Origin: Candidatus Krumholzibacteriota bacterium
GTDB lineage: Bacteria; Krumholzibacteriota; Krumholzibacteriia; JAJRXK01
Length of the DNA stretch: 64,000 nucleotides
Reading direction: 5' to 3'
NCBI GenBank assembly: GCA_029262065.1
Contig: JAJDAC010000033.1
Coordinates: forward strand, 1 to 64,000
The notes below the pieces were generated by a model. It was not told where the DNA came from, searched no databases, and saw only the letters and a program-made list of their open reading frames with translations. Each line of letters begins with the position of its first letter. The first letter of the stretch is position 1. A program made the translations under genes and the position numbers. Of the stretch, positions 33,095 to 36,738 are shown piece after piece.

Positions 33095-33646
33095 CTAGAT
33101 ACCGCGGTCGCTTCGCCGCTGCATCTCCCACCGATCGATGGGCGCAAGCGGGCCGACCGGGCAATGGTGTTCCACCGACGGTCTGCCCTGGATCATGCTG
33201 AGAAGGTGAGGGACGGCGCGCATCTCGCAGCCGGGCGTCGCGAGCACCGCCGCCAGCACGAACGATAGCGTCAAGTGCGCGAACTCGTACGTGAGCCAGG
33301 CCCAAACGATCCAGTTCAGCGGTGACGACCAGACGGTTCCGTTCATCGTGTAGCTGATCGAACCGCCAACTGCCGCCGCCAAAAGCACTCCGACCTGTGG
33401 CCACCGCCCCCAGTTGCGGGAGAACCCGATGTTCAGAACGTAGGGAAACAGAAAGAACCCAGCGAAAACGGTGAAGGCCCACTCCGACTGGGTCCAGGGC
33501 TCGCCATTGCGAAAGTACCGACCATCCACAATCAAAGCCCAGGTACCTGAGAAGAACACCGCGGCGAGTAATAGACGGGCAACCCGGCCGACAGGACCGG
33601 GACGTTCGATTGTGCCCTCGGGGGCCAGCTGGAGTTCCGCGCTCAT
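33095..33646 (-). CDS. Membrane protein at the end of a mercury-type operon
   Basis: The 183-residue protein has about four hydrophobic helices (RLLLAAVFFSGTWALIV, WAFTVFAGFFLFPYVLNIG, VGVLLAAAVGGSISY, LTLSFVLAAVLATPG) and a hydrophilic tail containing HHCPVGPLAP. The helices and the C-terminal Cys/His residues would fit a role in metal transport or sequestration, but I do not recognise a named family. It starts 11 bases after the stop of the TlpA-like gene, so it is probably the last gene of the transcript beginning at merR. It converges with the PPC-repeat gene. Confidence 0.65.
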   Translation of the reverse strand: MSAELQLAPEGTIERPGPVGRVARLLLAAVFFSGTWALIVDGRYFRNGEPWTQSEWAFTVFAGFFLFPYVLNIGFSRNWGRWPQVGVLLAAAVGGSISYTMNGTVWSSPLNWIVWAWLTYEFAHLTLSFVLAAVLATPGCEMRAVPHLLSMIQGRPSVEHHCPVGPLAPIDRWEMQRRSDRGI

Positions 33647-33656
33647 GGCTGCGCCA

Positions 33657-34394
33657 TCAACGCCCGGCTGACTGGCCCGTCGACACTGACTGTGCGAAGT
33701 GACTCGTCATACTTGCGACCACATGGTCCTTGCTCTGGTAACCAACAAGTCGTTGCTTCACGCTGCCCTCCGCGTCCACAAGCCAATAGGTGGGCACCAG
33801 GCGGCTATCGAATGTTTCGCCGAGCCCGTCGTCTGGCGAAGCCAGGACCGCATAATTGGGCTCGTACGCCTTCATGAACGAAGCCACACTCTCCGCGTCA
33901 CCCGAGTTCACGAACACCCCCACCACCTGTACACCTTGCTCCGCGTACTCCGTTTCAAGTTCCTTCAGAATTGGCAGCGTCTGAAAAGAATGTGAGCAGT
34001 GGCCAGCCAAGGTCACGAGGACCGTAGGCTTACCGACCAGGTCAGCGGAAGACACTTCACTACCGTCCATCGCGTATGCAGTGAACTCCGGAAGCGAGAG
34101 GTCCGCGTACGTTTCACCATCGCGGGCCTTTTCCTTGACGTACAAATCGAGCATGTCGCCGGTAGCACCCGAAAGGTCACCGTACAGGGAGCAGGCGCCA
34201 TACTCGGCGCAACGGCTCAGGGATGCCGTAGATGGAGTTACACAGGCGCTGGTGGATGTGACTGCGCAGGCACTGGGTTCTGCGGCCACATCCTTTTCTG
34301 AGGAGTTCTTCTCGGCCGTTGCGATGCCCGTGCACAGTACGACCAGGGCCAACACGGCCGAGAGCTTCGCAATGCGAAATGTGAATTGTTCCAT
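33657..34394 (-). CDS. Secreted TlpA/thioredoxin-like protein with atypical active site and Cys-rich N-terminus
   Basis: The 245-residue protein has a signal peptide (SAVLALVVLCTGIATA). A low-complexity segment with four cysteines follows (C43, C51, C62, C68), then a thioredoxin-fold domain from about 98. The TlpA framework is present (VGKPTVLVTLAGHC, FQTLPILKELETEYAEQGVQVVGV, RLVPTYWLVDAEG), but the usual C-x-x-C is replaced by HCSHS, leaving only C133. The N-terminal cysteines may supply the resolving thiol or bind a soft metal. The ATG at 34394 has AAGGAG nine bases upstream. It lies between the MerT-like selenoprotein candidate and a membrane protein, 67 bases after the former. Confidence 0.78.
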   Translation of the reverse strand: MEQFTFRIAKLSAVLALVVLCTGIATAEKNSSEKDVAAEPSACAVTSTSACVTPSTASLSRCAEYGACSLYGDLSGATGDMLDLYVKEKARDGETYADLSLPEFTAYAMDGSEVSSADLVGKPTVLVTLAGHCSHSFQTLPILKELETEYAEQGVQVVGVFVNSGDAESVASFMKAYEPNYAVLASPDDGLGETFDSRLVPTYWLVDAEGSVKQRLVGYQSKDHVVASMTSHFAQSVSTGQSAGR

Positions 34395-34461
34395 GACTTC
34401 CAACTCCTTGGGTTCCCTGAAATACTCTTGCGCCAAAGCGGTTGTCGCGATGGCACTCGGT

Positions 34462-35931
34462 TCACCGTGTTTCTTCGTCGAGGTGCGTTCGTATCTGTTT
34501 GGCGAGTTCCGTAGCGTCCAGCCGGTTCTCTGCGGGAAGCCTGCCGCTGAGCTGGTGCATGAAGTAATTTGGCCGCGGCGGCCCGGCATCGTCCCAGGTA
34601 ACGCCGGGCGCATACACCAGGTACACGTCCCAGGCCGGTTCAGTCTTTAGATCGATCGACGGCTGGAACAGTTCTCCCACCGAACGCGTGTCGACCCAGT
34701 AGTTGGAAACTCGTTCGTCGGGAAAAAGAATCGTCGCCTTGCGGGACGACCGCTCGTCGTCGGTCTTCAAGATGGGCTCCCACACCGCATACACCGACAG
34801 GGTCGTGTCGTCGATCTGCTCCAGGGTCTTGGACTGCACCTCACGGGCGCCGTACTGACACCCGGGTCAGGTGGGAGACAGCAGCATCAGCAGACGGGTC
34901 TTGTCGACATCGGCGTTGAAGCGCGCGCGTAACTCCGCCGCATCGTCTGATAGTCTTTCGACGAGGGAGGCATTTTCGGCGGCCGTTTCCAGTTCCAGGA
35001 ATCCCTCCGAGAACACGGCCTCACCGGTCTTGCGAAATATGAAGACCTCATTTTCCTCACCGACACTGCCCAGACCTTCCAGCGTCAGTCCGTCCGGAGA
35101 CAGTGCACCCTCGAACTTGGTTCCCATGGCCGTCAGGAAAAGCTGGATGTTGGGTTCCAGGCCAGACACTTCCACGGGATAGTCCTCGACCCCATACCTG
35201 GGAAGATCGAACTCCCCCACCCAGCGGGAATCGACTACACCGAGATCCATGATGATCTCGATCATCTCCCCGTCTTCGTCTTCGATTTCCGCGACCCAAT
35301 GACCGGAAAGCTTGTTGCCATCCTGACTCGCCGGCGACTCGGCCACCGACTTCAGCTCGTATCCCGCCTTACCCACCGCCGCGGCGAGCGCCATTTGGGT
35401 GGGGACGGCGCCGGCGCCGAGTTCCACAACCCCCTGCCGGTTCTCGTAGCTGACAGTGGCCGAAGTGACTTCAGCAAGTTCCAACAAGGCCATCTCGACC
35501 GCGGCCTCGCATCCCGCGCACGTCATGCCCTCGATATCCAAAACCAGTGTCTTGGATCGCGCGGAATCGGACGGCGCGGCTTGCGCGCCAACGACACGCC
35601 CTACGTAGCTTGGAAAGAGCGTGAGCGCCGCGACCAATGCCGTCGATGTCCAAAGCATCCCCAGGTTCAAGCGCCGGAGTCGTGAGTTGGAGGGTAGACA
35701 CTCACCGTCGGGCCCGCACTCAAACCTCGATGGGCGGTAGTTCAGGTAGAAACCAATGCCGAGCAACGCGACCGACACAACCAGGAATAGCGGACGGAAC
35801 CGCTCGAAGAACGCCGAAGCTCCGGCCACTGAAAATCCCGCGGCAATCATGAGGAGCGGCAACCAGCAGCACGCGGAAGACGCAGCCGCGGATACAACGG
35901 AACCCATGGTCGCCCAGCCCGCGCGTTTCAT
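34462..35931 (-). CDS. MerT-HMA (MerTP-like) fusion with C-terminal U-x-x-C domain; probable selenoprotein (in-frame TGA at 34869-34867)
   Basis: Reading TGA as selenocysteine gives 489 residues. Residues 1-110 are MerT-like: three helices, paired C21/C22 in the first helix and C72/C78 in the loop. C21/C22 and the six-residue C72-C78 spacing mirror the Hg-relay cysteines of MerT. An HMA/MerP-like domain follows (GMTCAGC, C138/C141), then a beta-rich region (about 205-325) and a thioredoxin-like domain. There LLMLLSPT is followed by TGA (residue 355), then Pro-Gly-Cys358 and GARE. The frame continues 131 codons beyond the PGC and adjacent residues without interruption, with ordinary coding character (WDVYLVYAPGVTWDD). 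The segment resembles redox motifs PTC-x-x-C, with U at the first Cys. TGA is a normal stop elsewhere here. The ATG at 35931 overlaps the upstream gene by four bases. An alternative is two separate genes or a mutated Cys codon. Confidence 0.8.
34836..34866 (-). promoter_or_regulatory. Candidate bacterial SECIS hairpin after the in-frame TGA
   Basis: Counting from the base after TGA, positions 17-21 (GCGCC) can pair with 27-31 (GGTGC), leaving the loop CGTGA. The loop starts about 21 bases from the TGA and has G as its second base, within the usual bacterial SECIS window. A competing stem pairs bases 3-10 with 16-23 (loop AGTAC), which is too close to the TGA for a standard SECIS. Folding was done by eye. 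Confidence 0.4.
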
Positions 35932-36233
35932 GGCGTACCGCTCGCGGTCAGTGCGGCCAGAACCAACTCCCGCGACGGAACCCCGGAGTTGCCGTAGCGG
36001 CGACAACTCATGGCGTAGTTCTCATCTTCACGACGTGCGAGTTCGATGTCTTCGCCGTCCACCCGTATCGTCGGCGAACCCAGAAATGCCAGGCGACCAA
36101 CGTCGTTCACGTGCTTGATTTCGACCTCGGTCAGAATCGCTTCGACGCCCGTTTCTGCAACTACTTCGCGCACGAGTTCGAGCGCGGGTGCATGGTTGGG
36201 GCAACCATTGAAATACAGAATGTCGATTCTCAT
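35928..36233 (-). CDS. Small thioredoxin-fold protein of mercury/metal resistance operons
   Basis: The 101-residue cytoplasmic protein begins with MRIDILYFNGCPNH, a beta-strand leading to a single active-site cysteine (C11) and histidine (H14). It continues with GSPTIRVDGEDIE, the cis-Pro segment of a thioredoxin fold, and C77 in YAMSCRRYG. Proteins of this kind are regular members of mer-type operons, where they may handle thiol-bound metal or electrons. It starts 39 bases after the MerR-type dyad and has AAGGAGG six bases before the ATG. Its last four bases overlap the start of the MerT-like gene, so the two are probably co-translated. Exact reaction unknown. Confidence 0.85.
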   Translation of the reverse strand: MRIDILYFNGCPNHAPALELVREVVAETGVEAILTEVEIKHVNDVGRLAFLGSPTIRVDGEDIELARREDENYAMSCRRYGNSGVPSRELVLAALTASGTP

Positions 36234-36271: not shown

Positions 36272-36290
36272 GACCCTGGTTCAGGGTCAA
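36272..36290 (-). promoter_or_regulatory. MerR-type operator/promoter inside the 3' end of merR
   Basis: The minus strand contains TTGACC (36290-36285), a good -35 element that runs into the perfect dyad GACCCTG-AAC-CAGGGTC (36288-36272). Dyads of this kind sit between widely spaced -35 and -10 elements at MerR-controlled promoters. The expected -10 position (about 19 bases on) reads CAGGTT, a weak match. The structural-gene start at 36233 follows. The -35 overlaps the last merR codon. Confidence 0.65.
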
Positions 36291-36724
36291 GACTCGATTT
36301 TCGGCGACGGAAGATCTCGCCTGAACTCTTCGATGGCCGGGCACTGGCCTTGTTGGTGGGGGCTACAGCAGGCCTCGTGGAGTCTTTGCAGGGTCCGTTG
36401 AACCGCGCGCAGGTCGGCAAGCTGCTGCCCGACGTGCTCAAGCCTGGAATCGATGACAGAGAGGACTTGTTCGCAGGGCGCAACCGCCCCATCGGCAAAC
36501 CGCAGGACGGTGGCGATATCTTCCAGCGAGAGCCCGCTCGATTGCGCGGCGCGGATGAAGCGCAGGCGAGATACTGAATTCGGCCCATACACACGGTAGT
36601 TGGCCGAACTCCGACCTTCGGGGCGAAGTAGCCCCCGGCGCTCGTAGTACCTTACGGTCGAGCCCGCGACGCCAACTTGCTTGGCGAGTTCACCTATGGT
36701 CAATGGCTTGTTCATTGTACTCAT
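36287..36724 (-). CDS. merR: MerR-family regulator of the mercury-responsive type
   Basis: The 145-residue protein has the MerR N-terminal winged helix (TIGELAKQVGVAGSTVRYYERRGLL), the NYRVY wing, a dimerisation helix and a metal-binding end. The three candidate Hg ligands are C84, C119 and C128. Their spacing (35 and 9) equals that of the classical Tn21/Tn501 MerR cysteines 82, 117 and 126, and the CCSPHQQGQC loop is similar. This separates it from CadR, CueR and ZntR types. It likely represses and activates its own gene and the downstream operon by distorting a long-spaced promoter. ATG 36724 is the best start; 36715 is possible. Dyads lie upstream and at its 3' end. A gene order with merR first and co-directional differs from the usual divergent arrangement. 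Confidence 0.93.
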   Translation of the reverse strand: MSTMNKPLTIGELAKQVGVAGSTVRYYERRGLLRPEGRSSANYRVYGPNSVSRLRFIRAAQSSGLSLEDIATVLRFADGAVAPCEQVLSVIDSRLEHVGQQLADLRAVQRTLQRLHEACCSPHQQGQCPAIEEFRRDLPSPKIES

Positions 36725-36738
36725 ATGATACCTACGCA

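Follow-up and report, generated by a model that had tools for sequence, protein, structure and literature searches.

A predicted selenoprotein with MerT, HMA and likely thioredoxin-like parts in a Candidatus Krumholzibacteriota bacterium

The fusion gene and its neighbours

The window, that is, the whole stretch of 64,000 nucleotides analysed here, encodes on its reverse strand a MerT-HMA fusion protein whose frame is interrupted by a TGA (Table 1). From 35931 to 34462 we read 354 codons, the internal TGA (34869-34867), Pro-Gly-Cys and, at the end, a terminal TGA (34464-34462), with 134 sense codons between the internal TGA and the terminal stop (135 including the stop). This re-reading agrees with the earlier note, which had described a 354-codon MerT/HMA fusion resuming with P-G-C for 135 codons. 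Its picture of a single interrupted fusion holds for the frame and was too narrow in extent, as the product is a four-part protein encoded within a cluster of five genes that lie on one strand with small gaps.

The MerT and HMA parts contain Cys alone and no Sec. They are followed by a region without a family match in a Pfam scan, which also precedes the Sec domain in a stand-alone Sec homologue (L096, in genome G004), and then by the domain that carries the U-P-G-C motif. Standard annotation would end the protein at residue 354 and hide the half with the predicted active site.

The start of the fusion gene shares four bases (ATGA) with the stop of the upstream gene, which encodes a DF-family protein. 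The redoxin-family protein encoded downstream reads GHCSHS in the usual CxxC region and has no CxxC, so it is probably not a standard disulfide reductase; a profile comparison detected no relation between it and the Sec domain. The uncharacterised protein of the cluster has no match in Pfam or NCBIfam, and it recurs near the Sec gene in three Gemmatimonadota clusters (G131, G100 and G200; E 1e-32 to 1e-40).

Table 1. Features of the locus, in positions of the window
Feature	Positions	Strand	Details
MerT-HMA-unnamed-thioredoxin(Sec) fusion gene (predicted)	34462..35931	-	489 residues with TGA read as Sec
MerT domain	35614..35916	-	residues 6-106; Cys pair SACCWLP and loop ECGPDGEC; Pfam PF02411 34.2 bits, cut-off 32.9
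HMA (MerP/CopZ-like) domain	35356..35544	-	residues 130-192; GMTCAGC (Cys, without Sec); PF00403 47.1 bits, cut-off 24.8
Unnamed region between HMA and Sec domain	34957..35319	-	residues 205-325
Likely thioredoxin-like domain with U-P-G-C	34465..34956	-	last ~163 residues
In-frame TGA, predicted selenocysteine codon	34867..34869	-	residue 355
Candidate SECIS hairpin	34836..34850	-	GCGCC-CGUGA-GGUGC; loop 21 nt after UGA
Overlapping hairpin, alternative SECIS candidate	34844..34864	-	CGGGUGUC-AGUAC-GGCGCCCG; loop 10 nt after UGA
DF-family (seleno)protein, Cys form (NGCPNH)	35928..36233	-	overlaps fusion-gene start; NCBIfam NF049942 105 bits, cut-off 70
MerR-family metal regulator	36290..36733	-	
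Redoxin/AhpC-TSA family protein	33657..34397	-	downstream of fusion gene
Uncharacterised protein with hydrophobic stretches	33095..33646	-	

Decoding of the internal TGA

The internal TGA is almost certainly read as selenocysteine, judging from the decoding machinery, the Sec/Cys pairing among homologues, selection on the downstream frame, constraint on synonymous codons and the associated hairpins. The window's genome contains a tRNA-Sec with a UCA anticodon, and SelA, SelB and SelD all score over their cut-offs. Thus the search for these four components that the earlier note had suggested finds them all, and the objection of missing machinery fails. SelD of this genome (G000:C48:88900-89832, L118) is itself a predicted selenoprotein, read through a TGA (AAGUAAK).

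The internal UGA might instead be read as Trp, Cys or Gly, through a change of code or a suppressor, in line with the Cys that five homologues have at this position. However, UGA terminates the fusion gene itself and its upstream neighbour (35928-36233), as had been said of TGA elsewhere in the window, and the genome has the canonical tRNA-Sec together with SelA/B/D; on this machinery and stop usage, recoding of UGA to another residue was rejected as a candidate. With the hairpin described below occurring in TGA copies and not in Cys copies, we regard such a reading as very improbable.

To collect homologues of the last domain, we ran its profile against 395 Gemmatimonadota genomes and 80 from the window's phylum; the motif is readable in 18 copies, the window's counted. 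A single alignment column, spanning two phyla, has TGA in 13 of these and a Cys codon (TGC or TGT) in 5. The second Cys of the motif is kept in all 18, and one genome (G004) carries both a TGA copy and a Cys copy. No motif-bearing homologue terminates at the position of residue 355. The window's Sec domain is 38% identical to a Gemmatimonadota copy (L009) and, over a longer stretch, 52% identical to L096. Because the same TGA occurs in 13 genomes, sequencing error was rejected, and chance as the source of the TGA was rejected because 13 copies (the window's included) share the column. The earlier proposal of a probable selenoprotein with a U-x-x-C site stands: none of the three findings named as speaking against it (no selenocysteine machinery, a Cys codon in the raw reads, homologues that end at this stop) holds. 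SelA is found in 15 of the 15 Gemmatimonadota genomes compared, so its presence says nothing about whether a carrier has TGA or Cys; the sole compared genome without SelB over the cut-off (G240) bears a Cys copy.

To judge from sequence comparison with L096, the frame after the TGA is under purifying selection: dN is 0.40 and dS 2.7 after the TGA, and dN is 0.34 and dS 1.88 before it, the dS values being saturated and read only as much larger than dN. Among six Gemmatimonadota TGA genes, codons +3 to +8 after the TGA are identical in 90 of 90 same-residue comparisons; outside the TGA region, 557 of 1292 such comparisons are identical (0.43). In a genome of the window's own family (G001), the MerT-HMA fusion has no Sec tail, as would be expected if the TGA were a true stop, or the gene a decayed one, with a 354-residue product and the remainder a remnant. 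Against this reading, the in-frame tail has a dN/dS of about 0.15, as low as the upstream part, the identical TGA is found in 13 genomes of two phyla, the synonymous codons are frozen and the hairpin is confined to TGA copies. We consider it extremely improbable and in practice refuted by the homologue comparison. Sequencing error or a pseudogene, as a candidate explanation, was ruled out by the 13 TGA copies together with the purifying selection.

A hairpin of -5.7 to -12.7 kcal/mol, with a G at the first or second loop position, occurs in every one of the 13 TGA copies. Nothing comparable is seen in the five Cys copies, where the best hairpin energies range from 0 to -3.6 kcal/mol. Changes in the stem compensate between lineages (for instance UUCGG/CCGAA, UCCGAG/CUCGGA and UCGCGG/CCGCGA). 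The single p-values (0.008 to 0.115) are not to be multiplied, since the hairpin scan was purpose-written and the copies are related; the synonymous-codon test of the hairpin gave 0.015 for the window's copy and 0.115 for L096. It performed better than a simple shuffle of the 42 nt that follow the TGA, which did not set the window's copy apart from chance (z -0.37). Rfam returned chance matches only on the TGA region.

The hairpin candidate that had been noticed within 34836-34866 is present, in the form of two overlapping hairpins. The one at 34844-34864 is the more stable (-12.7 kcal/mol). In bacteria the SECIS loop generally lies 16-37 nt from the UGA, so this hairpin, with its loop 10 nt away, fits less well. 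The hairpin at 34836-34850 has the same stem and a near-identical loop in L096; because of this shared stem and loop, and because it fits the SECIS spacing, it is tentatively favoured here as the putative SECIS of the window.

The Sec domain family and its gene partners

In the Pfam and NCBIfam releases scanned, no model recognises the window's Sec domain; the NCBIfam models include many that are cited by a 2026 review (PMC13188914). The domain looks like a member of an unlisted selenoprotein domain family that spans two phyla and is absent from those releases. Ten alignment columns are invariant, among them the Sec/Cys position, the second Cys, three Trp and one His, and invariant F, R, P, W and H residues surround the motif. 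An AF2 model of low confidence (pLDDT 61, pTM 0.63) has a thioredoxin-like topology; its U-x-x-C follows a strand and comes just before the first of the long central helices, the position that the motif has in thioredoxins. Its best PDB neighbours are mostly thioredoxins and peroxiredoxins (E 0.06 or worse, none significant), and comparison of the profile with PDB chains gave weak disulfide-oxidoreductase matches (E 0.033 to a protein disulfide oxidoreductase). Because these structural and profile matches are weak or non-significant, we grade the thioredoxin-like nature of the domain as likely. A search of plasmids for the Sec domain gave no match.

Stand-alone copies start with stretches that, read by eye, resemble signal peptides or the beginnings of lipoproteins, and the C-terminus of MerT is thought to face the periplasm. 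On both grounds, the fused Sec domain should lie outside the cytoplasmic membrane.

Among the Gemmatimonadota, 13 loci have readable flanks, and at 12 of them the Sec domain either has a MerT-like gene immediately upstream or is fused to one; the MerT-like call in G131, G240, G319 and the fused G468 was made partly by eye from a CC motif and length. The fusion in G468 is in frame. MerR was detected in six of these loci and a DF-family-like protein in five. We treat the linkage as a repeated association because the loci are in separate genomes; some may share descent. MerB (alkylmercury lyase) is present in 5 of the 17 genomes compared and belongs to the same cluster as the Sec domain in two of them (G131 and G319), and the MerB search gave no match in control genomes. 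No MerT-like neighbour of the Sec domain was found in G004, G005 or G384; the first two, from the window's class, have stand-alone copies. Since the parts are separate neighbours in most Gemmatimonadota and the MerT-HMA gene of G001 has no tail, the window's fusion appears to unite parts that are ordinarily found as neighbours.

The gene directly upstream of the Sec-domain gene in G384 (G384:C11:3286-4638, in L148) encodes a MerA-like FAD/NAD oxidoreductase (389 bits, below the MerA cut-off) and has one in-frame TGA; its product is possibly another selenoprotein. Two MerB-family matches (G352:C72:825-1190 and G131:C2:93142-93522) also contain one in-frame TGA each, and these could be Sec-containing organomercurial lyases or broken genes.

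Metal, possible role of Sec and relation to known systems

Through its gene neighbours, the Sec-domain family is connected with metal transport of the MerT type and also, in two relatives, with organomercurial lyase. In the window's genome we found no MerA over the cut-off (best 358 bits against 454) and no match to MerB, and the window's MerR scores 104-110 bits with ZntR models, 107 with MerR and 97 with CadR/PbrR, all below the cut-offs. These results would suit transport of zinc, cadmium, lead or copper, with the Sec domain serving a general thiophilic-metal system, as would the CusA/CzcA efflux pump that adjoins the fused copy in G468. Mercury is indicated instead by the MerT domain, which passes its Pfam cut-off, by MerB in two homologous clusters and by the MerR of G433, whose top score is the one for mercury (142.6, cut-off 150.85). 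A metal other than mercury is thus possible, if the less probable choice, and as a variant of our best explanation it is compatible with the recoding step. The earlier description of the protein as mercury-handling gains from the two MerB-containing clusters and loses in this genome, where neither MerA nor MerB exceeds its cut-off and MerR fits zinc equally well.

As a whole, we consider it probable that the gene encodes a selenoprotein whose Sec-x-x-Cys thiol oxidoreductase tail serves the cysteines of MerT and HMA. SelB and tRNA-Sec would decode the internal UGA at the hairpin just downstream, and translation would stop at the final UGA, which has no hairpin. The C-terminal domain would be an oxidoreductase of the thioredoxin-like kind, acting outside the cytoplasmic membrane through a Sec-x-x-Cys active site; most Gemmatimonadota carriers would make it as a separate, apparently exported protein beside a MerT-like transporter, and in the window it forms one protein with MerT and HMA. 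Most likely, the domain would keep the metal-binding Cys pairs of HMA/MerT reduced or resolve their mixed disulfides, and the reduced pairs would capture a thiophilic metal, probably Hg(II), and pass it inwards. Dependence on Sec would make the tail selenium-dependent, and failed decoding would yield the 354-residue MerT-HMA form. For the redox-partner role taken by itself, a Sec-based thiol oxidoreductase outside the membrane as suggested by motif and neighbours, we put the chances at about even.

Alternatively, Sec could be a metal ligand, with U-x-x-C binding a soft metal, Hg(II) or some other, on the outer side of the membrane for delivery to HMA/MerT. Sec binds Hg(II) very tightly, and the Sec domain is linked to MerT and MerB. 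According to the 2026 review, some selenoproteins linked to transport may use Sec as a metal ligand (PMC13188914). However, very tight binding would hamper release, a U-x-x-C placed between a strand and the following helix of a thioredoxin-like domain is typical of redox proteins, and the invariant residues around the motif (F, R, P, W and H) suggest a catalytic fold. We regard the ligand role as unlikely, though it is the main alternative to the redox role. Equally doubtful, in our view, is its extension to an undescribed Sec-x-x-Cys family of at least two phyla, normally made with MerT, whose Sec would itself capture Hg(II) or an organomercurial on the outer side of the membrane for transfer to HMA/MerT; if true, mercury import would here begin with a selenium-based step. 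The locus also raises the question of selenium supply as a determinant of metal (mercury) tolerance in carrier bacteria.

Known UxxC selenoproteins of thioredoxin-like setting (DsbG-like PF13462, Rcas_1661 NF041057 and others) resemble the Sec domain in motif and setting. PF13462 (E 0.0026) and NF041057 (E 0.074) each match one Sec-domain member weakly, but the window's copy matches neither, and the family as a whole has no significant match to the UxxC selenoprotein families. The upstream gene is, over the cut-off, a member of the DF family NF049942 (deep-Sep hypothetical protein DF, PMC13188914); unlike the fusion product, it is a separate small protein, here in the Cys form.

MerTP-like selenoproteins, which the earlier note suspected might already be described, are on record as MerT selenoproteins with a different Sec site: a putative mercuric transport protein (PF02411, C/SxxU, ABB16073.1) has been published (PMC9312934, PMC13188914). 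Mercury is not mentioned in the main text of Zhang 2006. Like the predicted protein of the window, the listed MerT selenoprotein and NF045683 (MerT_CopZ_Se, in NCBIfam a MerT/CopZ fusion-like protein) are Sec-containing, MerT-like transport proteins, but the window's fusion protein scores 58 bits against the NF045683 cut-off of 375. The MerTP fusion of NF033556 likewise joins MerT to a MerP/HMA domain; the window's protein reaches 90.2 bits against 180 and has, in addition, the unnamed region and the Sec domain. The window's HMA domain matches NF041115, a UxxU metal-binding (seleno)protein, at 44.9 bits, below the cut-off of 95, and its motif is CAGC, without Sec. Whereas the listed MerT selenoprotein has C/SxxU, the motif predicted in the window is UxxC, and it lies in an extra C-terminal domain.
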